DNA of 64,000 nt. Source: Crocinitomicaceae bacterium (GTDB lineage Bacteria > Bacteroidota > Bacteroidia > Flavobacteriales_D > Crocinitomicaceae). Below the pieces are notes generated by a model. That model did no database searches and was not told where the DNA came from. It saw nothing but the letters and a program-made list of their open reading frames with translations. Positions 19,304-48,558 of the stretch are shown in pieces. The position numbers and the translations under genes are program-made. The stretch covers positions 1 through 64,000 of the forward strand of contig JAKVAQ010000023.1 in the NCBI GenBank assembly GCA_022447665.1, in the 5' to 3' direction. Within the stretch, counting starts at the first letter, position 1; every line of letters starts with the position of its first letter.

Positions 19304-19334
19304 GTATTTTGATTTCGTTTGCGTTAGAGAAAAA

Positions 19335-19702
19335 GAAAAGCAAACCTATAAGCCGGGTTCTGTACGAACAAGTTCGTTCTTGTCATTTATCTAGTCCCGA
19401 AGTCACCCGCGGGATCAATCTATCTACCCTCCAGGATCAGTCGAGCAGACTTCAGGCCCTGGTTTACATGATATTTCAGCTCATGAGGTTTACCCTGACA
19501 CATTATGTCACCATAATACCGGTGAGCTCTTACCTCACCATTTCACCTTTTCCCCGTATGCACGAGGTAGTTTAATTTCTGCGGCACTTTCTGTAAAACG
19601 AGATTTTCATCATCGTTCCCCTTCCAGTTAGGAAGCATGATGCTCTTTGCTGCCCAGACTTTCCTCCCCGAACGATCGGGGCGACAAGACGGTTTGCTTT
19701 TC
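19335..19702 (-). ncRNA. rnpB: RNase P RNA
   Basis: The minus-strand RNA begins GAAAAGCAAACC and its 3' end is the complement of GAAAAGCAAACC at 19335-19346, giving a 12-base-pair P1 helix with GGTTTGCTTTTC at 19691-19702. GGAGGAAAGTCTGGGCAGC (complement of 19651-19673) is the universal 5' core and ACAGAACCCGGCTTAT the universal 3' core. Length is about 368 nt, in the range of bacterial type A RNase P. It is the catalytic RNA for tRNA 5' maturation. A plus-strand reading frame over this region is a shadow. No promoter of its own was clearly found before the RNA. Confidence 0.95.
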
Positions 19703-30566: not shown

Positions 30567-33500
30567 TTAGAAATCAAATTTAACCCCTAGACGAATTGTT
30601 CTTGGGATACCCAAATTAAATGGGTTTTGTACTTTAAGCATGTAATAATCTCTAAATGCTTGTGAATCCAACTGCTGACTGATGAATGGTTGGAACTGAG
30701 CAGAAGCTAAGTAACCATCGTCATCAGGTGTACCTGTTGCACGGTAAACATTTAAAGTATTTATTATGTTGAAAATGTTTGTTACACGACAATAAACATT
30801 TAAGTAAGCGACTTTCTTTTTATCCTCGTCATTTCCAAACTCTAATAGGAAGTTTCTATCAATCTGTAAATCCATTCTATATTGCCAAGGCTTACGCGAA
30901 CCATTTAATGAACCTTCTAGGAATGACTGGTTAGAAGAGAATAACGCTTCACCAACTGGTTGACGGAACGCAGAATACGGAGTTCCTGAACCAATATTCG
31001 TTACAAAGTTTAATCCTGTATTCTCAAGTAAGGCAGTCTCACCTATCTTAGGACCATTATAGTCTTTTCCAGCTCCATATCTGTAGTCAAAGACAAAGTT
31101 AAAGTTGTGACGTTGGTCGTAAGTATAAGGGAAGATTGTTCTTAAATTCGGAAGACCAGCATTGATAAGACCTGCAGCTGAAGTAGCATCAGAACCAGTA
31201 CCGTTAGCGAACTGTAATGTATATGATGCTGTCATACGCACATTACCTGTTCTTCTTAAGTCATAAGCAACCGTTAACCCTTTAACCGTACCAAAATCTC
31301 TGTTACCGAATGTAATGTAAGAGTTTGGATGAGCGTTAACAACATTAATTAACTGTACTTGATCTCTCTGTTCTTTATAGAATGCTGAGATTTTTAAAGA
31401 TGAAGTTTTACTCAATACTTGCTGGAAACCTAACTCATAGTCTATTGTTCTTTCAGGTCTTAGGTTCGGATTCGCAATTGTTCCACCACCATTCGCTAAG
31501 AATTGGTAATCAACTGGGTTGAAAATGTTACCCGTCGTTGGTCTTCTTGTAAGGATATCGTAATGAGCGAAGAACGATGCCTCATCAGAAATTGGGAATG
31601 AGAATGCAATTCTAGGCATCACATTGATTTGAGTCTTGTAATCTTCGAAAGCATCTGCTGTAGGTGTAGACAAAGTTGGATCTACTAGCCAAGGAGCAAT
31701 ACCTTTTGAACCTTCGATTACAGTTGGATCTGCAACCTCAACACCATTCGCGTCATACCAAGTATCACCATTACGGTAACCATTAATTGTAGTAGGGTTA
31801 TCGATATCGTTTACGTACACAACAAAATCATCTCCCATGTTTCCTGGGTGAGTAACCGCTGTTCCATTTGGAAGTTCAGTGATTTCTCTTACTGTCCTTG
31901 CATTGTATAATAAGTAAGGATCCTTAAGTACAGGCTGGTTAGCATCGAATACATCCACTCGTAAACCTACGTTAAAGATGATGTCATCAAATGCAAACTT
32001 ATCCATAATGTAACCCGCCATGTAGATTGGTTGGAAGGCACCAATTTTTCTTACGAAGTTTCCGTTTTCATCATATTCTGTAAAGTAGTCATTGATATCT
32101 GTATTACCTCTTACTTTTTGTCCCGTATGATCGTAACCTCTCCAAGTAAATAAGCTGTTTCCTGAATTCAACAATTCATCAGGACTGAACATATCAAGGG
32201 TAAAAAAGTTCGGATCTAGCTGATCAATCACAATGAAATCTGTTCCATCAGTGTAAGCGTCTAAGTCAGCTCCAGATAAACCAGCTTGTTCTCCTAATTT
32301 TCTTCGCACGTTGTAATCAAAGAAGTATTGTGCATCATTTCCCTGAATACCTTCGTAGTCACCCTTTGATGCATTTAATCTTTCATACGTTAATCTTGGG
32401 AACGTTCCGAAATAATCGAAAGTAGTAGTCGCAGCACTTCTGTCTATCTCAAGAATATGACTATTCATATATTGACGAGCAATGCTCCATAAACCTATTG
32501 GCGCACCACTGAATGCTCTATCCCATCTTTGTTCGTATTCGAAACCTAATGAAATAGCATGGTTATTTAAGTTGATAGTACCTGAACCAGTGATACGGAA
32601 CTGATCATTTTGTGAATAACCGTAATTATTAAATGGTGTCCCGATATTATTCCAAATACCATAAATATTGAAAGGAGTGTCTCCATTTCTTAATGCACCA
32701 CCTTGCTGCAACTGTAGTATATTTTCATAGTTACCTTCAGGCTGATCAGCATAAATAGTGTAATACTGAGAAGTAATCGCAGCAAGAGCTTCATTATTTG
32801 TGGAAGGCGTAAAATTCACAATAGTCTCTCTAAAACCATCCATTAGCAGTGAATCGCCTGCCGAGTTAAACGAATATGTGGGCTCAAAAATTCTTTCAAA
32901 GGTCCCAACATGTCCATAGTTGAATATTCTATCCTGATGAGTTGCATCCCAGCTTCTTCCATAACTTTGAGAGTAATCAATCATTAATGAATAATAAGCC
33001 GATTTAATTTTTGAATTAGACCCTTCCGTATTGTTATTGAAACGCTGCGTAAAGCGACCATAAACCCTCCAGTCTAATCTTCTAGACTGACCAAAATTCT
33101 CGAAGTTCATTAGTGAACCAGCATAGTTATAACCTCTTCCTGTACTCCAAGCCATGTTCCCCCCAAAAGTAAGGTTGATACTTGGTCCAGCATTAACATC
33201 AATCTTTCCAGCTGCTGAAGCAGATCTACCTCTTGCATTCATTCTCCAAGGAACCTGCTCGAATGCTGAATTATTAGGATCATCAAAATCATGACGTAAG
33301 AAATCTGTATTGTAATAAGTACCTGTACCCGTACCTGTAGGTCTAAGAGGACCAAGAGCATTAGGATCTAAGATTGAATCTCTCCACTCTCTCTTCAATC
33401 TGTAGTTACCACCTTCTGCTAAAGGACGTCCATCAAGTACGTCTGAGAAGTTTCCAGAAATAAAGAACCCTAAAATTGGCTTAGTCTTTTTACCTGTTGA

Positions 33501-34349
33501 ATCTTTCTTCATTAATAAAGGACCAGAAATCATACCCTCAACAAGGTTATAAGCATACTTATCTAATCCAAAAACCCTTCCATCATATCCTAGAGGATCA
33601 TCTCCATTAAAGTAGAAACCTGAAGTTACACCTTCAAAAGAACCGAAGTACTTAGCTGATGGACCTCTAGTAGTAATTGAAATTACACCACCTGTTACAT
33701 CACCATAGTTAGCAGGAACACCACCAGTAATTACAGCTACCTCTTGAATCGCTGATTTTGGTAAAGCTGACGAACCCCTTACTTTAATACCATCAATGAA
33801 GTAGTATGATGCTTCAGAACGAGCACCTCGAATACTTAATGCATCAGAACCTTCCGCCGCGTAAACACCACCAACAGTTTTTGCGATACCAGCTGCATCA
33901 CGCATTGGCATCTTTGCGATATCATCTCTAGTTACAACAGCACCTGACGCTCCACCATCCTTATCGATAAGAGGAACCTCATAAGCAATTACCTCAACCA
34001 CGTCTAACATTTCAGACGATTGACCCATTTGAATTGGATCTAATGGAGTTAATTTATCTGAGTTTACAACAACCCCTTCTTGTCTTACGGGCTGATACCC
34101 TACGAATCGCACCTCTACATCATAAGAACCAGGTGCAAGAGAAGAAATTCTAAACACTCCATTAAAGTCAGTCTTTGAAACTGCCTTTTGTTGATCATTT
34201 TGAAAAACTGCAACCTTAACAAAAGGAAGCGGTTCTCCAGTTTCTTTATCAACAACGGAACCTTTAATGGATCCAACACCGGTCTGCGCGAACACAAAAC
34301 CAACTGACAACAAGCAAGTTGTGAAAAATAATCTTAGTGGTGTCAACAT
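30567..34349 (-). CDS. TonB-dependent receptor with carboxypeptidase regulatory-like domain
   Basis: 1260 residues. Signal peptide (ending FVFA-QT); carboxypeptidase regulatory-like domain (about 24-110, GSIKGSVVDKETGEPLPFV); a plug (about 115-230) with DALSIRGARSEASYYFIDG and VGGVYAAEGS; then a large barrel ending in Phe (GVKFDF). It belongs to the CarboxypepD_reg/TonB group common in Bacteroidota. Such receptors import or display large ligands, and no glycan or SusD partner is next to it. It is the first gene of the operon with the giant secreted protein and the PorV-family barrel. Confidence 0.9.
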   Translation of the reverse strand: MLTPLRLFFTTCLLSVGFVFAQTGVGSIKGSVVDKETGEPLPFVKVAVFQNDQQKAVSKTDFNGVFRISSLAPGSYDVEVRFVGYQPVRQEGVVVNSDKLTPLDPIQMGQSSEMLDVVEVIAYEVPLIDKDGGASGAVVTRDDIAKMPMRDAAGIAKTVGGVYAAEGSDALSIRGARSEASYYFIDGIKVRGSSALPKSAIQEVAVITGGVPANYGDVTGGVISITTRGPSAKYFGSFEGVTSGFYFNGDDPLGYDGRVFGLDKYAYNLVEGMISGPLLMKKDSTGKKTKPILGFFISGNFSDVLDGRPLAEGGNYRLKREWRDSILDPNALGPLRPTGTGTGTYYNTDFLRHDFDDPNNSAFEQVPWRMNARGRSASAAGKIDVNAGPSINLTFGGNMAWSTGRGYNYAGSLMNFENFGQSRRLDWRVYGRFTQRFNNNTEGSNSKIKSAYYSLMIDYSQSYGRSWDATHQDRIFNYGHVGTFERIFEPTYSFNSAGDSLLMDGFRETIVNFTPSTNNEALAAITSQYYTIYADQPEGNYENILQLQQGGALRNGDTPFNIYGIWNNIGTPFNNYGYSQNDQFRITGSGTINLNNHAISLGFEYEQRWDRAFSGAPIGLWSIARQYMNSHILEIDRSAATTTFDYFGTFPRLTYERLNASKGDYEGIQGNDAQYFFDYNVRRKLGEQAGLSGADLDAYTDGTDFIVIDQLDPNFFTLDMFSPDELLNSGNSLFTWRGYDHTGQKVRGNTDINDYFTEYDENGNFVRKIGAFQPIYMAGYIMDKFAFDDIIFNVGLRVDVFDANQPVLKDPYLLYNARTVREITELPNGTAVTHPGNMGDDFVVYVNDIDNPTTINGYRNGDTWYDANGVEVADPTVIEGSKGIAPWLVDPTLSTPTADAFEDYKTQINVMPRIAFSFPISDEASFFAHYDILTRRPTTGNIFNPVDYQFLANGGGTIANPNLRPERTIDYELGFQQVLSKTSSLKISAFYKEQRDQVQLINVVNAHPNSYITFGNRDFGTVKGLTVAYDLRRTGNVRMTASYTLQFANGTGSDATSAAGLINAGLPNLRTIFPYTYDQRHNFNFVFDYRYGAGKDYNGPKIGETALLENTGLNFVTNIGSGTPYSAFRQPVGEALFSSNQSFLEGSLNGSRKPWQYRMDLQIDRNFLLEFGNDEDKKKVAYLNVYCRVTNIFNIINTLNVYRATGTPDDDGYLASAQFQPFISQQLDSQAFRDYYMLKVQNPFNLGIPRTIRLGVKFDF

Positions 34350-34522: not shown

Positions 34523-34813
34523 TTATACTAGTCTATTATTCTTCATTGATTTTCCTTTTTGACGACGTTTAGCATTTTTTGCCGCACGTTTCATCCTTTT
34601 TCTAGTGGCTTTGTCTTGATTAGACCAATGTCTTTTACCACTTCTTTTTCTGGATCTATAGCTATTTTTGACTTTCTTATTCTTTTTACCGCCTTTATCA
34701 CTTTTAACGCTTTTTGCTCCTTTATCCTGAGCATAAACATTGTTAGGCTGAATAGCAGCTATTGCAATAAAAATAAATAACTTCGTTAATAAGAAACCTA
34801 GCTTTCGTCTCAT
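34523..34813 (-). CDS. Small secreted, strongly basic protein
   Basis: 96 residues from the ATG at 34813; a longer in-frame start lies inside the divergent lipoprotein gene. The signal peptide ends NNVYA-Q. The mature ~68 residues hold 29 Lys/Arg and only three Asp, so the protein is highly basic and likely binds nucleic acid or acidic polysaccharide. No family is recognised. Its start codon shares the palindrome CATG with the divergent gene. Confidence 0.55.
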   Translation of the reverse strand: MRRKLGFLLTKLFIFIAIAAIQPNNVYAQDKGAKSVKSDKGGKKNKKVKNSYRSRKRSGKRHWSNQDKATRKRMKRAAKNAKRRQKGKSMKNNRLV

Positions 34814-35246
34814 GAAACAAATATATGCAAGATACCTTTGGTTAACGTTAAGTTTTAACATTTTATTTTTCGTATCGTGTGAGGGTGGCGAACATCCAGT
34901 ACCGAATGTACCCGTGAATATTGTAATAAACACAGACCTCCCGCTATACCAGCCTCTAAAAGCTACAGGAGGAACTGCTTATGTTGAAGGTGGTTCAAGA
35001 GGAATTGTTGTTTACAATAATTTTGACAATATTGTCGCTTTAGATAGACATGGCACATTTAATTCATCAGACCCGAATGTTCAAGTGATAGTAAACCCAG
35101 AAAATCAATTTGAGCTTATCGACACTATTTCGGGATCTAAATACAGTATTTTAAGCGGTGTAGTTCTTGAAGGGCCGGCCGAATTTCCGTTACGCGGTTA
35201 CAATACAACTTGGGACGGATTCTTGAATATCAGTATCTTTAATTAA
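34812..35246 (+). CDS. Lipoprotein resembling a Rieske-fold protein that lost its cluster ligands
   Basis: 144 residues with lipobox FFVSC (Cys23), which is the only Cys. The pattern PNVPVNIVIN, GGTAYVEGGSRGIVVY, then ALDRHG, SGSKYSILSGVVLEGPAEFPLRGY and FLNISIFN follows the lipid-anchored Rieske-like proteins of Bacteroidota, which carry CPxxxx and CxxCGS. Here the cluster Cys/His residues are absent (SGSKY where CxxCGSxY is expected). It may be a structural or ligand-binding relative. The assignment is by pattern, not by search. A bidirectional terminator follows. Confidence 0.5.
   Translation: MKQIYARYLWLTLSFNILFFVSCEGGEHPVPNVPVNIVINTDLPLYQPLKATGGTAYVEGGSRGIVVYNNFDNIVALDRHGTFNSSDPNVQVIVNPENQFELIDTISGSKYSILSGVVLEGPAEFPLRGYNTTWDGFLNISIFN
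34818..34825 (-). promoter_or_regulatory. -7 promoter box for the basic secreted protein
   Basis: TATATTTG on the minus strand matches TAnnTTTG. RNA would start near 34811, at the ATG itself, so the mRNA may be leaderless. Confidence 0.35.
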
Positions 35247-35301: not shown

Positions 35302-36615
35302 TTAATATCTGTAGTGTTCTGGCTTATATGGACCTTCAACTTTAACGCCAATATAATCCGCTTGCTCTTCTCTTAACTCTGTAAGCTCAGCTCCAACTTT
35401 TGCTAGGTGAAGTTTAGCCACTTTCTCATCAAGATGCTTAGGCAACATATACACTTCATTTTCGTAGTTATCCGAATTATTCCAAAGCTCAATTTGCGCT
35501 AAAGTTTGATTCGTGAACGAGTTCGACATTACAAAAGAAGGGTGCCCTGTAGCACAACCTAAATTCACAAGTCTACCTTCTGCGAGAACAATAATATCAT
35601 TCCCATTTAAAGTGTACATATCTACTTGCGGCTTAATCTCTGTTTTAGTTGATCCATACTTATCGTTTAGCCATGCCATATCGATCTCGTTATCGAAATG
35701 ACCAATATTACAAACGATAGTTTTATCTCTCATCGCTTCAAAATGATGTCCTTGTACAATATCCTTGTTTCCTGTTGTAGTAACAACGATATCAACTTTA
35801 TCAACTACTGATTCAAGTTTTCTTACTTCAAAACCATCCATTGCCGCTTGTAAAGCACAAATTGGATCGATTTCAGTTACAATAACTCTGGCTCCAGCTC
35901 CTTGTAATGAAGCAGCAGATCCTTTACCAACATCACCATAACCACAAACAACAGCAACTTTACCAGCCATCATTGTATCCGTAGCTCTGCGAATTGCATC
36001 TACTAAAGACTCTTTACACCCGTATTTATTATCAAATTTTGATTTCGTAACAGAATCGTTAACGTTGATTGCAGGCATTACCAATGTTCCATTCTTCATT
36101 CTCTCATAAAGTCTATGAACACCAGTTGTAGTTTCTTCTGACAAACCTTTGATATCTTTTGTTAATTCTGGAAATCTGTCAAAAACCATGTTTGTTAAAT
36201 CACCACCATCATCCAATATCATATTTAAAGGCTGACCATCTTTAAACGAGAATAAAGTTTGTTCAATACACCAATCAAACTCTTCTTCATTCATTCCTTT
36301 CCATGCGTAAACTGGAATACCTGCAGCAGCTATTGCAGCAGCAGCATGATCTTGGGTTGAGAAAATATTACATGAAGACCATGTCACATCTGCTCCTAAC
36401 TCAACTAAAGTTTCAATTAAAACTGCAGTTTGAATAGTCATATGAAGACATCCAGCGATTCTCGCACCAGCTAGCGGCTTAGAATCTCCATACTCTTCTC
36501 TTAGAGACATTAATCCAGGCATTTCAGCTTCTGCAATTCTAATCTCTTTTCTACCCCAATCCGCTAATGAAATATCTTTAACCTTGTATTTCATTCTTTC
36601 TGTTGTATCACTCAT
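35302..36615 (-). CDS. ahcY: Adenosylhomocysteinase
   Basis: 437 residues, normal length. It hydrolyses S-adenosylhomocysteine to adenosine and homocysteine in the methylation cycle. [22 protein letters not shown] near the N-terminus, the NAD-binding [13 protein letters not shown] and C-terminal [20 protein letters not shown] are all diagnostic. A -7 box (TAAATTTG) and a terminator bracket it, so it is probably monocistronic. Confidence 0.97.
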
Positions 36616-36686: not shown

Positions 36687-37325
36687 TTGCATTATAAGAC
36701 GCAAAACATCATCGAAAATGACAATATTAGGTTTTCAATAATCCTTTATGCTGATGCGCTACCACTCTATCCTGAGGAGAATTTAAGTAAAGCAGATTTG
36801 CAAAAATATAATCGAGCTAAATCACGTAAAAGAAAATTAGAAATCTTTTATTCAAGCATATTATGGAAAACCTTTGGAATACAGGAGGAAATCAAGTATT
36901 CTGGTTTAGGTTCTCCAGAACTTAAAACCGGACATCTAAGTAAGTCTCATTGTTCACAACAAGTAGGCATACTCGTTTCGAAGAATGCACCTTTTGGTAT
37001 TGACCTAGAAGCAGTTGATGAGAAGGTTCATCGTGTTAAAAATAAATTTTTGCACCCAGACGAAGAAAAACGATTCGAAACAGACAAGACCATTAACTTA
37101 ATAAGAATCTGGAGTATTAAAGAGGCTACCTTTAAATTCTTGAAATTAAGCGGAGTTACATTTAAGGAAATGCTTTGTGTGACAAGCCTAGATGAAAATC
37201 AAGGCTCCATTGTTGTAGACCACCCCGATTATAGAGGAGTCCTTGCTGTTAAACATTGGATTTCACAAAGTAATGGAATGGTTTATTCCTTAGTGGGAAA
37301 ACCGGCGGATATTTCTAAACTATAG
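36687..37325 (+). CDS. 4'-phosphopantetheinyl transferase superfamily protein
   Basis: 212 residues from a TTG start. GIDLE (104-108) and WSIKEA (142-147) are the Mg2+/CoA motifs of the Sfp/AcpT family. It converts apo carrier proteins to holo forms using CoA. The small length and single-domain organisation suit the primary-metabolism type. Start position is uncertain because no ATG lies upstream. It is divergent from ahcY, with a 71-base gap. Confidence 0.8.
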   Translation: MHYKTQNIIENDNIRFSIILYADALPLYPEENLSKADLQKYNRAKSRKRKLEIFYSSILWKTFGIQEEIKYSGLGSPELKTGHLSKSHCSQQVGILVSKNAPFGIDLEAVDEKVHRVKNKFLHPDEEKRFETDKTINLIRIWSIKEATFKFLKLSGVTFKEMLCVTSLDENQGSIVVDHPDYRGVLAVKHWISQSNGMVYSLVGKPADISKL

Positions 37326-37372: not shown

Positions 37373-38575
37373 ATGTTCTTTTTTCAATCAAATAACACAA
37401 AGGTTTTAGGCATATTGTTGTTCCTATTCAGCTTCATGGGTAATGCACAGAATGGATGGCATCAAAAAGCATCGCATGGCGGCGATGCAAGACACAGAAG
37501 CACTGCATTTGCCATAGGAAACAAAGGGTATTTCGGTGGAGGTCACATCAATTCTGGCGTTGAAGTCACCTACTCTGATTATTGGCAATTTGATCCATCA
37601 ACAAATTCATGGTCTCAAATAGCGGATTTTGGAGGAGGTAAAAGATATCACTCCACGGCTTTTACAATTGGAAACTGGGCTTATGTTGGCTGTGGAGAAG
37701 ATGGAGCAGACACCTATCATAATGACTTATGGAAGTATAGCCCAATTGTCAATACCTGGTTTCCATGCACTGCTCTACCGGGAAATCCGAGACGAGGAGC
37801 TGTTGCATTCGTAATTGGGGACTATGCTTATTTTGGAACAGGGCAAAGTGATTTCGGCTATGAAGTAGATTTCTACAAATTTGATCCAGTATCTGAAACC
37901 TGGACAACTATTGCCGACTTTATAGGTCAAGCTCGATCAGGAGCTGTTGCATTCTCGCATCAAGGTCTTGGATATCTGGGTACTGGACATATCCTCGGTG
38001 ATGCCACAAAGGATTTTTATAGTTATGACCCTATTACCGATACATGGGAACAAAAAGCTAACGTTGGAACCTTTCTAAGACAGGACGCTACAGGTTTTGT
38101 CTTGAATGGTAAAGGCTATATTGTAACAGGAAATAATGACTCTGGAGACTCTACATATAATGATGTTTGGGAATACAATTTCGACACCGATGAATGGAAA
38201 GAGCTTGAGGAGTTTCCGGGAACCCGAAGACGCTATATGGTTTCTTTCGTTATTGACAACATTGCCTACGCAGGTTCTGGTACAAGCGGGACTAACCTGA
38301 GAGACTTTTGGGCATTTCAGCCTTTTCTAAACAAGAGCCTTGAGAATAGACCCGAAATAAAATTAGGCCCTAATCCTTCATCTGATCTCATGGACATCTC
38401 TATTCCAAATGAATCTGTAGAACTAAAAATATTTGATCTTGACGGAAAATTAGTTTATACAAGATCTTTTAATGAACATACTCAAATTAGAAAATCAGAA
38501 ATAGGAACGGGCAAATTCATCTTAACACTAATTACTAGAAATCAAAGAATTAATCAAAGAATTATATTTGTATAA
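37373..38575 (+). CDS. Secreted kelch-repeat protein with T9SS sorting domain
   Basis: 400 residues with a signal peptide (ending FMGNA-QNG). Six kelch repeats (segments RSTAFAIGNKGYFGGG, HSTAFTIGNWAYVGCG and similar, each followed by WxxxDP-like strands) form a six-bladed propeller over about 35-315. The last ~75 residues are a T9SS domain: KLGPNPSSDLM, then FDLDGKLVYTR and GTGKFILTLI. Such proteins are surface or extracellular binding modules. It separates the PPTase and GGGP synthase genes and is directly followed by the latter. Confidence 0.85.
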   Translation: MFFFQSNNTKVLGILLFLFSFMGNAQNGWHQKASHGGDARHRSTAFAIGNKGYFGGGHINSGVEVTYSDYWQFDPSTNSWSQIADFGGGKRYHSTAFTIGNWAYVGCGEDGADTYHNDLWKYSPIVNTWFPCTALPGNPRRGAVAFVIGDYAYFGTGQSDFGYEVDFYKFDPVSETWTTIADFIGQARSGAVAFSHQGLGYLGTGHILGDATKDFYSYDPITDTWEQKANVGTFLRQDATGFVLNGKGYIVTGNNDSGDSTYNDVWEYNFDTDEWKELEEFPGTRRRYMVSFVIDNIAYAGSGTSGTNLRDFWAFQPFLNKSLENRPEIKLGPNPSSDLMDISIPNESVELKIFDLDGKLVYTRSFNEHTQIRKSEIGTGKFILTLITRNQRINQRIIFV

Positions 38576-39316
38576 GTGGAGTTTTTTGGAAAAAAAATAG
38601 AATCGAACAAATCTTTGATCGCTGTTCTCATCGACCCTGATAAGACATCTGAACATTCTGCACTTCAAAATCTTGTTAAAAAGATAGAGTTTGCAAACAT
38701 CGATTTTATTTTCATTGGTGGAAGTAGCGTAAAAGAAGAAGATTTTAACCGTTGCTTAGATAATCTAAAGGCGATTACTAAAGTACCAGTTGTAATATTC
38801 CCAGGAGGGCCCTCGCAAGTTTCTCTCAAAGCTGACGGTATGCTTTTATTAAGCCTTATTTCAGGAAGAAATCCTGATTATTTAATAGGGCACCACGTTC
38901 AATCTGCACCAAAACTCAAAGAACTTAAGGAAAAACTTTTACCTACAGGATATATCTTACTCGATGGAGGCAATAATTCTGCTGTTGCCTACATTAGTCA
39001 AACAAGTCCGATACCTCAGTCAAATCCGGAGATAGCAGTTAATACAGCCATTGCCGGAGAACTTTTAGGTCTTAAAGCCATTTTTATAGATGCTGGCTCA
39101 GGAGCCCATCATTCAGCAAATGAAAATCTGATAAAAAGACTGAGATCAGAGATAAACGTTCCGTTAATTGTAGGAGGAGGAGTAAAATCCATTGAGCGAA
39201 TACAAGAATTGGAAAATGCTGGTGCAGACATAATTGTAATTGGAAATAAAATAGAAGAAGACATTGATTTCTTGCTAGATATAGCTTCGATTAGAACAAC
39301 TAAAATTAATGAATAA
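38576..39316 (+). CDS. Geranylgeranylglyceryl/heptaprenylglyceryl phosphate synthase-family protein
   Basis: 246 residues, TIM barrel. AVLIDPDKT, FIFIGGSS and the phosphate-binding VGGGVKSIERIQ plus AGADIIVIGNKI match the GGGP synthase/PcrB family. Such enzymes join an isoprenyl group to sn-glycerol-1-phosphate. Bacterial group II members are common in Bacteroidota, where the product is not established in all species. It starts with GTG directly after the kelch stop and overlaps the next gene by eight bases. The nearby PPTase is part of the same conserved neighbourhood. Confidence 0.85.
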   Translation: MEFFGKKIESNKSLIAVLIDPDKTSEHSALQNLVKKIEFANIDFIFIGGSSVKEEDFNRCLDNLKAITKVPVVIFPGGPSQVSLKADGMLLLSLISGRNPDYLIGHHVQSAPKLKELKEKLLPTGYILLDGGNNSAVAYISQTSPIPQSNPEIAVNTAIAGELLGLKAIFIDAGSGAHHSANENLIKRLRSEINVPLIVGGGVKSIERIQELENAGADIIVIGNKIEEDIDFLLDIASIRTTKINE

Positions 39317-41909
39317 GTTATTCGTCCTAATATCAACATTATTTAGCGGACTAGGTTTTGCACAAGTGCTTGAAGCTCCGACTGCTAGTTTTGCTCCAGG
39401 AGTTTATCTTGGTCCAATAGACATCTCCCTTTCTCACCCTGAACCAGGTGTAACGATTTTCTACACCCTAAATGGAGATGAGCCAGGACCTGGAGACCTT
39501 GTATACTCAGGAAGCATAACGTTAGACAATAGGTCTGGGGATCCCAACAGTTATTCGACGATTCCAACAAATCCATCATTCACTTACCCGATGGGAGCAT
39601 ACAATGCCTCGCGCGCGAATAACCGTGGATGGTTACCCCCATTTACTACTATTTATAAGGTGAATGTTTTACGATTTAGAGCGTACAAACCTGGAACAGT
39701 TCCTAGTGAAACCGTAACAAAAACCTACATCATTGATCCAGCCGGAACATCTTTATATACATTCCCTATTGTATCAATAGTGCTAGACAGCATAGATTTG
39801 TTCTCTAACGAAAGTGGTATTTACGTTTTTGGTGACCATCCTGATGGAAACTACTCCAACAAAGGAGCCGCTTGGGAAAGAATCTCCCATTTCGAATACT
39901 TTGAACCAGATGGAACACTGGGTTACGCGCAAAATTCTAGGGCTCGAATACACGGAGGAGGAACTAGACATTCTACTAAAAAGAACTTCAGACTTTATGG
40001 AGAAACTGGAGAGAACAATAATTTTGAATACCAATTCTTTGACAACCTGGAGATTGATAGATTTAAGCGTATTCTAATTAGAGCTGGAGGACACAGGCCA
40101 GACTGCTTTCCACGCGATGATTTGGCCAATATGTTCACAGAGGGTCTAAATGCGGATCAACAACACTTTAAACACATCATCCTATTTTTAAATGGAGAAT
40201 ATTGGGGCATTCATGCCATTAAGGAACGTGTGGACAAATATTTTCTTCAAAATCAATTTGGTATTGATGACAACGAGATAACGATACTAGACCAAGAATT
40301 CGATGTACAAGACGGTTACGCCGCAGACAGTTTGGAAATGGCCATTCTTGAAGATTTTATAAACGTTAATGATATGAACGATCCTGCCAATTATCAATAC
40401 GCATTGGACAGAATTGACATGGATAGTTACATCGATTACATGTGTGCGGAAATCTTCCTCAGTAATGAAGACTGGGTCTACTCCAACGTTGTGATATGGA
40501 GAAAAACCGGACCTTATGATCCTTCAAAACCCGCAGGGCATGATGGGAAGTTTAGGTGGGTGTTTTATGATTTTGATGGTGCTTTCGGTGGGTCATGCAA
40601 CAACGCATACTACACTGTAAACACATTAGGAAGCGCCACTGTTGAAACAGGTATTTATACTTCATACACCAGATTTTTCCGTGGATTACTTGAAAATGAT
40701 GGTTTTAGAGCACGATTTATAAATCGCATGTGCGACCTCTCTAACTCCTGGTTCAAATCAACAGTAACTACAGACAAATTATGGAATCTGTATGACAAAT
40801 TAACACCAGAAATGCTTGAAAATGTTGAGCGTTGGCGATACCCATCAATGGCTACCAACTTGGCAGATAGAGCTCTAGAAACACCTTCACTTGATAGATG
40901 GAACGAGACTTTTGATTTATTGGATAGATTCTTAAGAAGGAGAGCCTCCAAAGTAGTAGAGGATATTATGCAAAAATGGTCCTATACGGATACCTCTTTC
41001 GTTACTATTGACGTTAATAACCTAGAAATGGGGCAAGTAAAACTGAGCAGCATTACTATAAACGAGCAGCTTCAGGGTGTAGATGCGGGTATTTATCCAT
41101 GGACTGGTCGTTATATTAATGACGTTGAAATCCCTCTTGTCGCGCAAGCCTATCCAGGCTACGAATTTGTTGAATGGTTGGAAACAGGCAACACCAATGA
41201 CTCAATTATGATTTCTATCAACAGCGATTCAACCTTTACGGCAGTTTTTCAGGAAAGCAGTTCTTTTCAAAATGTCTTGATCAATGAGCTAATGCCATCT
41301 AATGATGCAAGTTATAGCGATATTTTTGGAGATTTTGATGATTGGTTAGAGTTTTACAATCCAAACCCTTATCCAGTTTCACTCGGTAATTGCATCATGG
41401 AAAGAGACGGTCTTACCTGGACTATTCCAAATGATTTTATCATAGATGCCAACGGATTTAAAATTCTGTGGTTTGACGACGAAGAATACCAAGGAGAAAA
41501 TCATGTTAGTTTTAAACTACCCAATAACGAACACACTGTATTTCTGAAAAATGTGAATGGAGATATTATTGACCAAATAACATATCCGGACACCGAAACA
41601 GATAACTCATATGGAAGATTCCCTAATGGTAGCGGAACTTTTGCAAACTTCACTTACCCTACACCGCTCCAAACCAATGATTTGACTAGTACCTCAGCTT
41701 ACAATTATCAACCTTTGTATGCTTATCCAAATCCAAGTAAAGATTTTATGAATCTTAGCAGAGTATCTAGTTTCCAAATTTTTGATTTACAGGGTAGACT
41801 GATTAAAGCAGAAAACTCTACAAATCAAATCAATGTTGAAACCCTGAACAAAGGAACATACATACTCAAAACAGATCTAGGCGAGACACTTAAAATTATC
41901 GTACAATAA
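39309..41909 (+). CDS. Secreted CotH-family kinase with lamin-tail and T9SS domains
   Basis: 866 residues. Signal peptide (ending GLGFA-Q); chitobiase-like/CHB_HEX domain (about 23-140); CotH kinase domain (about 150-500) with RIHGGGTRHSTKKNF, KERVDK, SNEDW (385-389) and YDFDGAFGG (DFD at 421-423); an InlB-repeat-like piece; lamin-tail domain (about 655-790); and a T9SS C-terminus (YAYPNPSKD, FDLQGRL, KGTYILKT). CotH proteins are atypical kinases of spore coats in Bacillus; here the catalytic Asp/Lys pattern looks intact. Its substrate is unknown. The chain is coupled to the FG-GAP gene by an adjacent stop and start. Confidence 0.82.
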   Translation: MNKLFVLISTLFSGLGFAQVLEAPTASFAPGVYLGPIDISLSHPEPGVTIFYTLNGDEPGPGDLVYSGSITLDNRSGDPNSYSTIPTNPSFTYPMGAYNASRANNRGWLPPFTTIYKVNVLRFRAYKPGTVPSETVTKTYIIDPAGTSLYTFPIVSIVLDSIDLFSNESGIYVFGDHPDGNYSNKGAAWERISHFEYFEPDGTLGYAQNSRARIHGGGTRHSTKKNFRLYGETGENNNFEYQFFDNLEIDRFKRILIRAGGHRPDCFPRDDLANMFTEGLNADQQHFKHIILFLNGEYWGIHAIKERVDKYFLQNQFGIDDNEITILDQEFDVQDGYAADSLEMAILEDFINVNDMNDPANYQYALDRIDMDSYIDYMCAEIFLSNEDWVYSNVVIWRKTGPYDPSKPAGHDGKFRWVFYDFDGAFGGSCNNAYYTVNTLGSATVETGIYTSYTRFFRGLLENDGFRARFINRMCDLSNSWFKSTVTTDKLWNLYDKLTPEMLENVERWRYPSMATNLADRALETPSLDRWNETFDLLDRFLRRRASKVVEDIMQKWSYTDTSFVTIDVNNLEMGQVKLSSITINEQLQGVDAGIYPWTGRYINDVEIPLVAQAYPGYEFVEWLETGNTNDSIMISINSDSTFTAVFQESSSFQNVLINELMPSNDASYSDIFGDFDDWLEFYNPNPYPVSLGNCIMERDGLTWTIPNDFIIDANGFKILWFDDEEYQGENHVSFKLPNNEHTVFLKNVNGDIIDQITYPDTETDNSYGRFPNGSGTFANFTYPTPLQTNDLTSTSAYNYQPLYAYPNPSKDFMNLSRVSSFQIFDLQGRLIKAENSTNQINVETLNKGTYILKTDLGETLKIIVQ

Positions 41910-44210
41910 ATGAAAATATTAAGTACAATATCGTTTATAGTTTTTACTTGCGTAGGTTTTGGTCAGGTTTATGAGGAAATTTACAAAGCAGTTTCATCGG
42001 ATCGAGAAATTGATGATAGAGCAGGTTATGCTGTAGCAGTTGAAGGAGATTATGCCGTAGTAGGTGCTTATGGAGATGATTTTTCGAGCGAAAACGAAGG
42101 CTCTGTTTATGTCTACAAAAGAACTGGAGTATCGTCTTGGGACTTTCTACAAAAGCTTACCTCATCGGATCAAGAGGGGTATGACAGATTCGGTTGGTCT
42201 GTTGCTATGGATAATGATTATTTAGTTGTTGGAGCATACGCTGAAGATGATGATTTATCGGGTGGAGATTCTAAATCCAAAGCAGGTTCTGCATATGTAT
42301 TTAAAAGAGATGGAAGTGGAATGTACATAGAAGTACAAAAACTAATTGCACCTGACAGAGATGTTGGTGATGAATTCGGTTGGTCTGTTGACATTCATGA
42401 CTCTACAATAGTTGTTGGTGCGCATACCGAAGATCATTCAGATCTGGGAAGCGCAGACTATGAGTATAATGCAGGATCTGTATACATGTTTGATTTGGAC
42501 ATAACCGGAACGTGGAATTTTAGTCAGAAAGTTGTTCCAATTGAACGTAATGATGACCACGTATACCCAGAAGGTTATTCTGGGGAAGACCTATCTGATT
42601 TATTTGGAGGCTGCGTAGCGATTTCAGGGGATTACATGATTGTTGGATCCCACATGCATGATTACGGACCGGGCGCCTCTGCCTATCAATGGAATGCTGG
42701 AACTGCTTACATTTTTGAGCGTGATGGAACAGGAACTTGGAATCAAGCAATAAAACTATTAAGCTTTGATCGTGACGCTTGGGATAGATTTGGTTGGGAT
42801 GTTGATATTGACTCAAATGTAGCCGTTGTATGTGCAAGAGCCGAAGATGAAGGTCCTGATGGAGTTACCGAATACATGCACAACACTGGATCCGTATACA
42901 TCTATGAGAGAAATGCTGGAGGCTCATGGTTATTAGACCAAAAAATAATTGCAAGTGACAGAGAGCCAGGAGATCATTTTGGCAATGGATTAAGTATTGA
43001 TGGGGATATTATTGTTTTAGCCACACACTCAAATAATACTGATGCATCTGGAGGAGACACACAGGATAATGCAGGTGCCGCGTACGTTTTTCATAATGAC
43101 GGAGGTACTTGGACGCAACATCAAAAGTTAGTAGCATCTGATAGAGATGTAGATGACGAATTTGGTTGGGACGCTAGAGTTGAGGGAAACACCGTAATTG
43201 TAGGAGCACCATATCAAAAATTTGACGCCACAGGCGCTAGTCCGATTGAGGAGGCTGGGGCTGCATATTTCTTCAGCCAGGATATTTGCGAAGATGGATT
43301 TAGTACATTAGATACGACAATTTGCAGCGGCCAAAGTATTACGATTGAAGGAAGTACATACGATAGCGAAGGCACCTTCATTAACACCTTCACTAAACCA
43401 GACGGTTGCGACTCAACTATTACGATAAACTTAACATTAACTCCCCCTCCAGTATATTACAAAACAGTAAACCTATGTTATGGTCTTAGTTACTCTATTG
43501 GAGGCACAACCTATACCACAAGTGGAATCTATAATGACACGCTCACTGCCACAGGCGGTTGTGACAGCGTAGTTGTGACAGACTTGACGATTGAAGACGA
43601 AAACGCTGTAACACAAGAAGTGAGTATATGTTGGGGAGAAGAATACTCTATAGGCGCATCAACTTATAATGTGAGTGGAACCTATACCGACATTATTACT
43701 TCATCAACCTTTTGTGATAGTGTGATAACGACGATTCTAACTGTAGAGCTTCCGGTAAACATAGCAGTAACGGCTTCAGGGAGCCAACTCAGCGCGGCCG
43801 CTGCTGATGCAGAGTATCAATGGATGAAATGTGAAAATGATTTCACTATACCTGGTGCCACGAATCAAACTTATATCGCAAGTACTGCTGGCGAATACGC
43901 GGTAATCGTAACAGAAAATGGATGCACTGACACTTCTTCTTGCGTCTTTATTAGCTCAGTCGGGATAACAGATACCGATTTCGAGTTTAGCATCTTCCCT
44001 AACCCAACCAATTCTAAAATAATTCTAAGTTTTGAGAACCCTTCGCGACGCACGATAGAAGTATTGGATCAATCAGGAAAAATATTGCTTGTAGAGTATA
44101 ATAGCGAAAACTCTGTCGAATTAGACTTCAGTAAATTTGATGCAGGCATATATTTTACAAGAATCAGTGGTGCCGGAGCAACAATCACCAAAAAAGTACT
44201 AAAGAATTAA
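41910..44210 (+). CDS. Secreted seven-bladed FG-GAP protein with T9SS domain
   Basis: 766 residues with a signal peptide (ending VGFGQ). Seven FG-GAP-like repeats (AVAVEGDYAVVGAYGDD, SVAMDNDYLVVGAYAED and so on) fit an integrin-alpha-like seven-bladed propeller. Three Cys-containing repeats (about 470-640) each have a CxG start and a CDS end. A PKD/Ig-like segment follows, then a T9SS domain (FPNPTNSK, VLDQSGKI, DAGIYFTRI). It is translated right after the CotH gene. The protein may be an adhesin or kinase substrate; both are inference. Confidence 0.82.
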   Translation: MKILSTISFIVFTCVGFGQVYEEIYKAVSSDREIDDRAGYAVAVEGDYAVVGAYGDDFSSENEGSVYVYKRTGVSSWDFLQKLTSSDQEGYDRFGWSVAMDNDYLVVGAYAEDDDLSGGDSKSKAGSAYVFKRDGSGMYIEVQKLIAPDRDVGDEFGWSVDIHDSTIVVGAHTEDHSDLGSADYEYNAGSVYMFDLDITGTWNFSQKVVPIERNDDHVYPEGYSGEDLSDLFGGCVAISGDYMIVGSHMHDYGPGASAYQWNAGTAYIFERDGTGTWNQAIKLLSFDRDAWDRFGWDVDIDSNVAVVCARAEDEGPDGVTEYMHNTGSVYIYERNAGGSWLLDQKIIASDREPGDHFGNGLSIDGDIIVLATHSNNTDASGGDTQDNAGAAYVFHNDGGTWTQHQKLVASDRDVDDEFGWDARVEGNTVIVGAPYQKFDATGASPIEEAGAAYFFSQDICEDGFSTLDTTICSGQSITIEGSTYDSEGTFINTFTKPDGCDSTITINLTLTPPPVYYKTVNLCYGLSYSIGGTTYTTSGIYNDTLTATGGCDSVVVTDLTIEDENAVTQEVSICWGEEYSIGASTYNVSGTYTDIITSSTFCDSVITTILTVELPVNIAVTASGSQLSAAAADAEYQWMKCENDFTIPGATNQTYIASTAGEYAVIVTENGCTDTSSCVFISSVGITDTDFEFSIFPNPTNSKIILSFENPSRRTIEVLDQSGKILLVEYNSENSVELDFSKFDAGIYFTRISGAGATITKKVLKN

Positions 44211-45104: not shown

Positions 45105-46325
45105 TTATAATACCCATCCAAATCTTTGTTCAAATTGCCTGAACAAATAAGATCTTACATCTTCGTTTTCATATTCCTCGATGACCTCTGCTATAAAAGC
45201 TGCTACCAACATTTTTTCAGCATTTCTCTTTGAAATACCTCTCGTTTGAAGATAGAAAATTGCGTTCTCGTCTAGCTGTCCAGTAGTCGATCCATGCGAA
45301 CATTTTACATCATCAGCATAAATCTCGAGTTCTGGTTTTGCGTTAATTGAAGCGGTATCGGAAAGTAATATATTTCCATTGCTTTGAAACGCATTTATTT
45401 GTTGTGCATCTTTTTGAACAATCACGCGACCGTTAAAGACGCCGGTAGACTTATCATCCATCACGTATTTATAATTCTCATTACTTACGCAGTGTGATTT
45501 ATCATGACTAACGAATGTGTGATTATCAACATGATTATTTCCATGCCCCATCACAATTCCATTCAAGTTGGTTTCGCAATTTTCACTCGTTACACGAATA
45601 TTCAGATTGTTTCTTACCAATTGTCCGTATAATGTATTAGTATTAATGGTAAATCTTGAAGAGTTTTCTTGAACAATATTATCATTAGAAACATGTGAAG
45701 TTGACCCTTCTTCCAATTGAAATTTATTCACACTTAAACTAGCGTTTTTACCCACATGCATGCGGCTATAGAAGTTGGTAAACACTTCTTCACTGTTACG
45801 CCCTAAATATGAAAAAACTAACTCTCCTTCTGCGTTATCTCCCACTTCCACATCTACCAACGAAGACTGCAAAATATTCTTACCATATCCTACAAAAATC
45901 AATTGTAAAGGACCATCAGTTCTCTCTCCTTTTCCAAGTTTAATTGAGATTTTACGGTTAATAGTAGCGTTGTTTAGCCACCCAAAAACATCTAAACCAT
46001 CATTTAACTCAGCAGTTTCTGCCGATTCAAATTCAACCTTAAATTTTGTTTTAGTGTATTGACTTAAATCTTCACGAATTACGCCGTTTACAACGACTAA
46101 ATAGTCTTTACAAACGATATCATCGGTAATATTGATATGATCCTCTACTCGATCAACGTTTTTGTAATTTCCGTTGGCTATTTTACCAACTCTGGTATAC
46201 TTCCAATACTCATCGCGAGTCGTTGGGAACTCAGACGCTAAAAACTTCTCCCATGCCTCAGTTTGGTTTTGACCTTGAGGAGGAATAATGTTCTGCGCAA
46301 ACTTTTCGATTTTACTTTCTGCCAT
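45105..46325 (-). CDS. sufD: Fe-S cluster assembly protein SufD
   Basis: 406 residues. A beta-helix scaffold of the SufBC2D complex. The HGSTTGQLDENAIFYLQTRGI motif near the C-terminus and FIAEVIEEY are conserved. It lacks the SufB Cys pattern. It is the last gene before the terminator; no sufS or sufE follows here. Confidence 0.95.
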   Translation of the reverse strand: MAESKIEKFAQNIIPPQGQNQTEAWEKFLASEFPTTRDEYWKYTRVGKIANGNYKNVDRVEDHINITDDIVCKDYLVVVNGVIREDLSQYTKTKFKVEFESAETAELNDGLDVFGWLNNATINRKISIKLGKGERTDGPLQLIFVGYGKNILQSSLVDVEVGDNAEGELVFSYLGRNSEEVFTNFYSRMHVGKNASLSVNKFQLEEGSTSHVSNDNIVQENSSRFTINTNTLYGQLVRNNLNIRVTSENCETNLNGIVMGHGNNHVDNHTFVSHDKSHCVSNENYKYVMDDKSTGVFNGRVIVQKDAQQINAFQSNGNILLSDTASINAKPELEIYADDVKCSHGSTTGQLDENAIFYLQTRGISKRNAEKMLVAAFIAEVIEEYENEDVRSYLFRQFEQRFGWVL

Positions 46326-46344
46326 TTTATGCTAGATTTAATTT

Positions 46345-47106
46345 CTAGGCTTCAGTCAGCCAATCGTATCCTTTTTCTTCTAACTCTAGCGCCAATGATT
46401 TATCACCGGTTTTAACAATTTTACCATCCGCTAAAACATGAACAAAATCAGGAACTATATAGTCTAATAATCTTTGATAGTGCGTAATTACTACTACCGC
46501 GTTATTTTCACTTTTTAGTTTATTCACCCCTGCCGCAACAGTCCTAAGAGCATCGATATCTAGACCAGAGTCTGTTTCATCTAGAATTGAAACCTTTGGT
46601 TCTAACATAGCCATCTGGAAGATTTCATTTCTTTTCTTTTCACCTCCGGAGAACCCTTCGTTAACAGCTCTTGACGCCAGTTTCGCATCTAATTCAACTA
46701 ATTTAGATTTCTCACGAACCATTGCCATGAAATCTTTTGCAGAGATTTGTTCTTCACCTCTGTAGTCTTTGATTTCGTTCAATGCTGTTCTTAAAAAGTT
46801 GATATTACTAACGCCCGGAATCTCAACTGGATATTGAAAGGCAAGAAATAAACCTTCTTTAGCTCTTTCATCAGGATCAAGATCAAGAATATCTTTTCCA
46901 TCAAAATTGATTTCACCATCAGTAACTTCATAACCATCTTTACCTGAAACAACAGATGCTAAAGTAGATTTTCCAGCACCATTTGGCCCCATAATCGCAT
47001 GAACCTCACCAGCATTTACTTTAAGATTTAAGCCTTTTAATATTTGCTTTCCTTCATCTTCAATTTCTGCATGAAGGTTTTTTATATCTAATAATGTTTT
47101 GCTCAT
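46345..47106 (-). CDS. sufC: Fe-S cluster assembly ATPase SufC
   Basis: 253 residues. ABC-type ATPase: Walker A GPNGAGKS (40-47), signature FSGGEKKRNEI, Walker B VSILDETDSGLDIDA. It powers conformational change of SufBD during cluster assembly. It is separated by about 12-20 bases from sufB and sufD and so belongs to one operon. Confidence 0.97.
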   Translation of the reverse strand: MSKTLLDIKNLHAEIEDEGKQILKGLNLKVNAGEVHAIMGPNGAGKSTLASVVSGKDGYEVTDGEINFDGKDILDLDPDERAKEGLFLAFQYPVEIPGVSNINFLRTALNEIKDYRGEEQISAKDFMAMVREKSKLVELDAKLASRAVNEGFSGGEKKRNEIFQMAMLEPKVSILDETDSGLDIDALRTVAAGVNKLKSENNAVVVITHYQRLLDYIVPDFVHVLADGKIVKTGDKSLALELEEKGYDWLTEA

Positions 47107-47118
47107 TTTTCTGATTTT

Positions 47119-48558
47119 TTATCCAACACTATTTTCAAGTGAGATTGCTAATAATTTTTGCGCTTCTACCGCAAATTCCATTGGTAATTTATTGAGAACT
47201 TCTTTACAGTATCCATTAACAATCAAGCTAATGGCCTTTTCTTCAGAAAGTCCTCTTTGTTGACAATAAAATATTTGATCTTCTCCGATTTTGGAAGTTG
47301 TTGCCTCGTGCTCCAACTTAGCAGAGTTATTTTTACATTCTATATACGGGAAGGTATGTGCTCCGCACTCGTCAGTCATTAATAAACTATCACATTGTGT
47401 AAAGTTTCTTGCATTATCTGCCTTCGGATTAATTTGGATCAATCCTCGGTAAGAATTTTGTGACTTTCCAGCAGAAATACCTTTTGATATTACTGTACTC
47501 TTTGTGTTTTTTCCCAAATGTATCATCTTAGTACCGGTATCCGCCTGCTGATAATTATTGGTTACTGCAACTGAGTAAAACTCTCCAATTGAATTATCAC
47601 CTTTAAGCACACAAGAAGGGTATTTCCATGTAACCGCTGAACCAGTTTCAACCTGAGTCCAAGATATTTTAGAATTGGTGTGGCACATTCCTCTTTTTGT
47701 AACAAAGTTGAATACACCACCTTTTCCGTTCTCATCGCCTGGAAACCAATTTTGAACCGTAGAATACTTAATTTCGGCATCATCCAAAGCAATCAACTCA
47801 ACAACAGCTGCGTGTAATTGATTTTCATCTCTCATCGGCGCGGTACATCCTTCTAGATAGGACACATAAGAACCTTCATCAGCCACCAGTAATGTTCTTT
47901 CAAATTGACCAGTTCCTGATTCATTTATCCTGAAATAAGTACTTAATTCCATAGGACATTTTACTCCTTTGGGAATATAGCAAAACGATCCATCTGAAAA
48001 GACAGCTGAATTTAAGGCTGCATAGAAATTATCTTGCGTAGGTACCACTGTACCTAAATGCTTTCTTACCAATTCTGGATGATCCTGAACTGCTTCAGAA
48101 AATGAGCAGAATATAATGCCTAACTCACTCAATTTTTCTTTAAAGGAAGTTGCAACAGAAACAGAGTCCATTACAAAATCAACTGCTACTCCTGTAAGTT
48201 TCTTCTGCTCATCGAGAGAGATTCCTAACTTATCCATAGTAGCCTTCATCTCCGGATCAACATCTTCCCATGATTCGTATTGCTTCTTAGGAGCTGCAAA
48301 GTATGATATCGCTTGAAAATCCGGCTTATCGTATTTCACATGTGCCCATTCAGGCTCCTCCATTTCAGACCAAATTCTAAAGGCATTTAATCTGTACTCC
48401 AACAGCCATTCCGGCTCATTCTTTTTCGCAGATATTAATCGAATAACGTCCTCATTGAGACCATTCGGTATTTTCTCGGTTTCAATATCCGTAGTAAAAC
48501 CAAACTCGTATTTCTTATCTTTTAACTCCTCTGCTAATTCTTCTTCAGTATATCCCAT
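47119..48558 (-). CDS. sufB: Fe-S cluster assembly protein SufB
   Basis: 479 residues. SufB carries the scaffold site for nascent clusters, and [18 protein letters not shown] plus [30 protein letters not shown] are diagnostic; [15 protein letters not shown] near the C-terminus is the conserved cluster/SufD-contact region. It is longer than sufD by about 70 residues, mainly at the N-terminus. Confidence 0.97.

Follow-up and report, generated by a model that had tools for sequence, protein, structure and literature searches.

CotH-family kinases have serine/threonine specificity by family, and the CotH proteins of cellulosomes carry dockerins; the CotH protein described here, encoded beside an FG-GAP propeller protein in a 64,000-nucleotide stretch of the genome of a Crocinitomicaceae bacterium (contig JAKVAQ010000023.1, positions 1 to 64,000; hereafter the window), has a sorting domain of the type IX secretion system (T9SS) instead. 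The repeats of CotB and CotG, substrates of Bacillus CotH, are rich in lysine and arginine, and Fam20C is an animal protein kinase that works outside the cytosol. Bacillus CotH is described from the spore coat, its known substrates CotB and CotG carry Ser-rich repeats, and B. subtilis CotH is inactivated by changing D228 or D251 (PMC7821199; PMC numbers refer here and below to the available part of each text). The window CotH shares with the Bacillus proteins (B. cereus, 5jd9 and 5jda; B. subtilis), which are its best profile and structure match, the kinase fold, the catalytic Asp pair, the Lys and the Asn, and adds to them a CHB_HEX/Fn3_assoc module, a lamin-tail domain, the T9SS domain and acidic propeller neighbours. 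In non-sporulating S. intermedius, SIR_1594, a CotH-FN3 protein of the Pel cluster, likewise joins an exported CotH domain to a beta-sandwich module (PMC12345266, PMC7112168). Gram-positive Pel clusters combine CotH, polyphosphate polymerase and DUF4956 (PMC7112168), whereas neighbours of the SIR_1594 kind (Pel, polyphosphate polymerase, DUF4956) are absent among the scanned window genes around CotH. CotH-like domains likewise form part of an extracellular machine in the cellulosome (PMC12484212).

In the open-access papers searched, no listed title or abstract start describes a substrate of a Bacteroidota CotH or deals with a CotH kinase of Bacteroidota (T9SS, FG-GAP, Flavobacteri-), and nothing came up on extracellular phosphorylation in Bacteroidetes. 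The CotH family is already known; what is new is the setting, in which a CotH predicted to be exported by the T9SS is kept next to integrin-like propellers. In the window, the genes for the CotH-family kinase (866 aa; 39309..41909, +) and the FG-GAP propeller protein (766 aa; 41910..44210, +), each defined by its open reading frame, Pfam, TIGR04183 and a predicted model, close a packed plus-strand run of 4′-phosphopantetheinyl transferase (PPTase), T9SS kelch protein, geranylgeranylglyceryl phosphate (GGGP) synthase, CotH and FG-GAP, in which the TAA of CotH directly abuts the ATG of the FG-GAP gene (41909/41910). We give even chances to the explanation that CotH is a competent atypical protein kinase, exported by the T9SS and acting at the surface, which is inherited as a unit with the kelch and FG-GAP propellers. 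Its computed basis is the kinase fold, the catalytic residues, the sorting domains, the gene order and one relative, G041, from which all three exported genes are absent together.

Fold and catalytic residues of the CotH protein

The CotH domain (PF08757) covers aa 213-547, with E 3.7e-38 and 132.2 bits against a cut-off of 23.8, and spans profile positions 2-320 of 322. It is preceded by a CHB_HEX_C_1/Fn3_assoc module (aa 29-140; 39393..39728, +; Pfam), where aa 20-142 of the model match a 73-residue stretch of 8ayr with Z 11.1, and is followed by a lamin-tail domain with an Ig fold (aa 650-760; 41256..41588, +; PF00932, E 2.5e-12; lamin A/C, Z 9.8) and a type A T9SS sorting domain (aa 806-864; 41724..41900, +; PF18962/TIGR04183). 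A match to Flg_new_2 stays under the cut-off. TIGR04183 matches aa 806-866 with 39.7 bits against a cut-off of 23, in agreement with the initial annotation, which had placed a T9SS domain on the protein. The N-termini of the CotH and FG-GAP proteins are signal-peptide-like by eye, being hydrophobic and ending in FAQ and FGQ, and the same genome holds a 2462-aa open frame with a SprA_N match of 529 bits, a part of the T9SS translocon. T9SS export of both proteins, as predicted from the sorting domains and the SprA-type protein, is supported.

The AlphaFold2 model of the CotH protein, made with 40 sequences, has a predicted local distance difference test score (pLDDT) of 88.3 and a predicted template modelling score (pTM) of 0.78. 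Its best Foldseek matches are the B. cereus CotH structures 5jda and 5jd9 (E 3.6e-12, template modelling score, TM, 0.75 by target), and VIA-align superimposes aa 151-557 (39759..40979, +) on 5jd9 over 332 residues with Z 27.2 and a root-mean-square deviation (rmsd) of 2.5. The next solved kinase fold is that of H. pylori CtkA at Z 11.9, for which the CotH-profile sequence match is not significant (E 0.083), and PI3K and HipA follow near Z 10. Fam20C is not among the best 50 structure matches, an absence that excludes nothing. Sequence comparison leads to the same B. cereus structures: a profile of nine CotH domains matches 5jd9 and 5jda over the whole domain with E 1.1e-31. The whole-protein profile of 40 sequences did not list 5jd9, and Phmmer with the single CotH protein or domain matched no CotH structure.

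Catalytic residues were compared in alignment A3 (the window protein and 39 relatives at 28-59% identity, 40 rows), in alignment A2 (nine CotH domains, namely the window, one sister and seven paralogues from its own genome) and in the 18 rows of alignment A1. The genome holds ten CotH matches, the window copy and nine more, and those on contigs C69 and C18 were left out of the alignment. D388 (40470..40472, +), placed at the catalytic D228 of B. subtilis CotH, and D421, placed at D251 and opening the D421-F422-D423 motif (40569..40577, +), are both invariant (40/40 in A3, 18/18 in A1, 9/9 in A2), while D423 is kept in 40/40, 18/18 and 6/9 rows of these alignments. The conserved N-lobe Lys, K225 (39981..39983, +), lies at the KK of 5jd9 and is present in 18/18 rows of A1, 39/40 of A3 (with one gap) and 6/9 of A2; N393, five residues past the catalytic Asp (40485..40487, +), is present in 39/40 rows of A3, 18/18 of A1 and 7/9 of A2. 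E306, the Glu after the NGxYxG strand (40224..40226, +), occurs in 9/9 rows of A2, 16/18 of A1 and 26/40 of A3, where nine further rows have Asp. Distant CotH relatives at two loci (L057 and L058, in genomes G034 and G123) have Ser and Ala at this position and are possibly altered kinases.

In the alignment with 5jd9, the Asp of NFDG pairs with D388 and the first Asp of WDYD pairs with D421. The two Asp residues are separated by 23 residues both in 5jd9 and in B. subtilis CotH (D228/D251), and by 33 in the window protein; given the equal spacing, the 5jd9 pair would correspond to D228/D251. The Lys, Asn-Glu-Asp-Trp and DFD motifs that had been read in the domain are present at K225, 386-389 and 421-423, and the absence of a key catalytic residue, named at the outset as an observation that would speak against a kinase, did not occur, since the Asp pair, the Lys, the Asn and the second Asp are all in place. 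Within the Asn-Glu-Asp-Trp motif, N386 is found in 40/40 rows of A3 and 7/9 of A2, and W389 in 40/40 and 3/9; because they vary in A2, the Trp, the middle Phe and in part the second Asp of these motifs are not general. Judged by the alignments and the predicted model, CotH is likely to be catalytically competent and a working kinase.

Inheritance of CotH with the propeller proteins

The FG-GAP protein consists of seven FG-GAP_2 repeats (aa 20-458; 41967..43283, +; seven PF14312 matches, E 3.8e-78), a region of Cys-Asp-Ser (GCDS) repeats between propeller and tail (aa 462-625; 43293..43784, +; alignment A4) and a type A T9SS sorting domain (aa 695-763; 43992..44198, +; PF18962/TIGR04183), for which TIGR04183 gives 51.9 bits against a cut-off of 23. 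The description of this neighbour as seven-bladed, equipped with a T9SS domain and starting directly at the CotH stop therefore holds on all three counts, with seven PF14312 stretches, the TIGR04183 match and the TAA-ATG junction. Its model is of moderate confidence (pLDDT 72.6, pTM 0.57). Integrin alpha chains, whose head has seven FG-GAP-type repeats in common with it, fill most of the top rows in a comparison of this model with PDB (E 1e-14), at a TM by query of 0.33-0.37 and an rmsd of 6-31. By analogy, the integrin-alpha likeness suggests a role in adhesion. The third exported protein of the run is a 400-aa kelch propeller protein with a T9SS sorting domain (37373..38575, +).

Two features of the FG-GAP protein were considered as phosphosites and set aside. 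The Ser of a Ser-Asp-Arg motif in the first blade is kept in 2 of the 5 aligned FG-GAP proteins, and no site is proposed; the GCDS repeats are not specific, since GCDS and tail are matched in many genomes of the family, including genomes that have no CotH orthologue. Further propeller genes lie elsewhere in the same genome: a second FG-GAP_2 gene is divided between two open frames, 402 and 134 aa long (L204:7474-9044, on contig C17), with no CotH match near it in the 16-kb stretch, and three kelch-T9SS genes lie near a T9SS esterase-like protein on contig C28 (L205, 33001-51000), a stretch that has no CotH.

Our survey covered 150 genomes of the GTDB family, 62 of which have a CotH match at E ≤ 1e-30. 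A CotH orthologue, defined by at least 50% identity, is present in 16, including the window's own genome and one (G054) whose locus is split over two contigs. Fourteen orthologue loci were compared, then that of G054, together with the window and six distant relatives (32-40% identity). FG-GAP directly follows CotH in 13 of the 14 loci (14 of 15 with G054, 15 of 16 with the window), and in the exception, G088, the contig stops 101 bases past CotH. GGGP synthase precedes CotH in 14/14 loci, and the kelch and PPTase genes are in place in 13/14, the fourteenth contig starting inside the GGGP synthase gene. A propeller-only search at E ≤ 1e-15 gives matches in 26 of the 150 genomes; near-full propellers, for which we required a match of at least 250 residues with at least 250 bits, are confined to 16, the same 16 that carry a CotH orthologue, and the matches in the other 10 are partial, with at most 137.5 bits.

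The FG-GAP copies beside CotH group together across six genera, and the split that separates them from the additional copies has support 0.93. In most orthologue loci the available stretch or contig stops close to the FG-GAP genes or within them; for G008 and G038 the contig stops inside the first copy or no more than 1.2 kb from it. Tandem copies were seen only in genus g12, where all 8 readable loci have two to four copies in all (G088 being unreadable), and a single copy is present in the five loci outside g12 that can be read beyond it, namely the window, G020, G004, G025 and G054.

One relative has none of the three exported genes in this place. In G041, a genome that is 98% complete, AHCY, PPTase and GGGP synthase are direct neighbours on a contig of 91 kb; the kelch gene is missing between PPTase and GGGP synthase, and neither CotH nor FG-GAP follows. 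The other matches of G041 to kelch, CotH and FG-GAP are weaker and elsewhere in the genome. In a four-gene tree of 12 loci, G041 and G004 are sisters within genus g5 (support 1.0), whose members G004, G025 and G054 all have the kelch, CotH and FG-GAP set. Because G041 is nested in g5, parsimony points to loss of the three exported genes from two sites with the enzyme gene between them kept. This one joint absence, together with gene order and tandem copies, supports kelch, CotH and FG-GAP as a functional unit at the level of sequence, and does not by itself speak to kinase-substrate chemistry. A kinase-propeller pair, a multi-copy partner and a relative that has none of the set make a small, tractable system for bacterial phosphorylation outside the cell.

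Possible roles of a surface CotH kinase

In the explanation that we favour, the CotH protein would be exported through the T9SS and act at the cell surface, where it would keep its kinase activity, using ATP outside the inner membrane, and would phosphorylate the co-exported FG-GAP protein, the kelch protein or both. FG-GAP would be the first substrate candidate by position and co-inheritance, with the T9SS kelch protein as a second candidate, and phosphorylation may alter surface-layer assembly or adhesion. A more specific version, which we regard as possible and rather doubtful, is a dedicated extracellular kinase-substrate module, in which CotH would phosphorylate the integrin-alpha-like FG-GAP protein and the kelch protein and so switch adhesion or assembly, with tandem amplification of the substrate in one genus and loss of the complete module in another lineage. 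The pairing gains interest if the propeller does receive the phosphate.

Several observations weigh against this explanation. We know of no ATP source at the cell surface, and a surface kinase, if real, poses the question of where its ATP comes from. The FG-GAP protein is acidic, with an isoelectric point (pI) of 4.06 and 5% Lys+Arg, and the pI of the kelch protein is 5.29, so that neither has the composition of a Ser-rich, basic substrate of the CotB/CotG type beside the kinase; a pI of 4.06, unlike the Ser-rich Bacillus substrates, counts against simple transfer of the Bacillus model. The proposal of the initial annotation that the neighbour is a natural substrate candidate is thus borne out in part: order, tandem copies and joint absence mark FG-GAP as a partner of CotH, whereas its composition is unlike that of the known CotH substrates. 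Within the kinase, the Glu at E306 is not shared by all relatives, and positions K225, N393 and D423 differ in some of the paralogues. Neither an FG-GAP neighbour nor the run was found at any of the six distant CotH loci (32-40% identity), one of which lies on a 4.8-kb contig. The carriers form one clade, so the counts are not independent and, apart from G041, the match between CotH and propeller may be plain inheritance. Near-full propellers are also found on contigs other than that of CotH in some carriers (G059:C55, G030:C52 and G008:C377 among others).

A tentative alternative is that CotH is active at the surface and FG-GAP is not its substrate, the targets being CotH itself, the matrix or something polysaccharide-related, with the propellers as partners in the same surface structure. 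It draws on CotH lineages that have other partners. A first search for relatives with the single CotH protein found nothing, and an alignment query against species-representative genomes gave at least 577 related stretches, of which 80 were kept; CotH with the N-terminal sandwich is widespread, the kept stretches coming, as judged by record titles, from Bacteroidota, Balneolales, Clostridia, Verrucomicrobia and others. Around the 80 CotH loci, a propeller search found matches at two loci of the same clade, L129 and L070 (Crocinitomix sp., Crocinitomicaceae, the nearest named relative), and weakly at L140, where Pfam places an FG-GAP_3 T9SS protein directly upstream of the CotH gene. Counted over 60 genes that lie next to CotH on the same strand, at most 250 bases away, at the other 78 loci, the commonest families are the T9SS tail (9), CotH (7), the lamin tail (7), family 2 glycosyltransferase (4) and DUF4956 (4), the last of which also accompanies CotH in Gram-positive Pel clusters (PMC7112168); FG-GAP is not among the best 25 of 62 neighbour families, although the neighbour at L140 is one of the 60. 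The near-absence of FG-GAP beside other CotH loci indicates that the pairing is for the most part confined to this clade.

In 4 of 5 named full-length relatives at 36-40% identity (L071, L073, L074 and L075), the gene immediately upstream of CotH encodes a family 2 glycosyltransferase, and the fifth, L072, begins at a contig end; the four loci are a possible polysaccharide-linked CotH system. In genus g18, all four loci chosen for proximity (L188-L191) encode a CotH protein of about 1330 aa, then a T9SS protein and four kelch-T9SS genes; at L188, where Pfam was run on three proteins of the locus, the CotH protein has three lamin tails and the T9SS protein that follows has GEVED. In S. intermedius, deletion of the secreted CotH-domain protein of the Pel cluster cut aggregation and changed Pel levels (PMC12345266). 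By inference, the thread common to these settings would be cell-surface or matrix assembly. Against targets other than FG-GAP stands the finding that the fixed partner in the window's clade is FG-GAP rather than a glycosyltransferase, and that FG-GAP is multi-copy in one genus.

It is unlikely, in our estimate, that CotH is no kinase in the ATP-poor outside and serves instead in binding or adhesion, the role proposed for the CotH invasins of fungi, with FG-GAP and kelch as fellow adhesins. The flanking CHB_HEX_C and lamin-tail domains and the integrin-like partner suggest surface binding, and the lack of a known ATP source outside fits the same idea; fungal CotH mediates invasion through GRP78 (PMC12211043). 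However, N386, D388, D421 and D423 are kept in every row of A3 and K225 in all but one, and catalytic residues that stay invariant at 28-59% overall identity argue for selection on catalysis. Least of all do we expect the gene order to be passive synteny of unrelated genes inherited in one clade and lacking functional contact: the run does hold enzyme genes (PPTase, GGGP synthase), the block of AHCY and TonB receptor is conserved too and the carriers are one clade, but CotH and FG-GAP stay together where the downstream methyltransferase and Suf genes differ (G020, G004, G025, G054), and in G041, a single case, the missing genes are precisely the exported three, in two places, with the enzyme genes between them kept.

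Neighbouring genes and other features of the window

The run opens with PPTase (36687..37325, +; Pfam), and the GGGP synthase family enzyme (38576..39316, +) lies between the exported genes; both are present where those genes are absent. The CotH start overlaps the end of the GGGP synthase gene. The kelch gene lies between those of PPTase and GGGP synthase, the latter a member of an archaeal-type family of ether lipid enzymes, and in G041 these two enzyme genes are side by side. Downstream, a methyltransferase gene at 44210 comes next after FG-GAP, and farther on lie genes that we take to be Suf (45105-48558). Upstream are genes that are presumably AHCY (35302-36615) and a TonB receptor (30567-34349); these three names go by the look of the sequences. 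The upstream block is also conserved in the orthologue loci, whereas the methyltransferase and Suf genes of the window do not follow in G020, G004, G025 and G054, the four loci whose sequence extends for 4.9 kb or more beyond FG-GAP.

Beside AHCY, a gene for a 96-aa protein with 34% Lys+Arg and, by eye, a signal-like start (34526-34813, −) lies head to head with one for a 144-aa protein that looks lipoprotein-like (34812-35243, +), and neither has a Pfam match. The pair stands beside AHCY in 10 of 14 orthologue loci, and three of the other four contigs end before it; at the remaining locus (L052, in G038) the 1.2 kb that follow AHCY do not contain the pair, and the basic protein is encoded on a different contig. 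As a CotH substrate the basic protein was set aside: it is present in 15 of the 150 genomes, namely 14 of the 16 CotH carriers and G041, which has no CotH in the run. Its distribution thus matches the clade and does not depend on CotH, and it may still be a substrate. Elsewhere in the window, an Rfam search gave a sole match at the gathering threshold, an RNase P RNA of class A (19333-19700, −).

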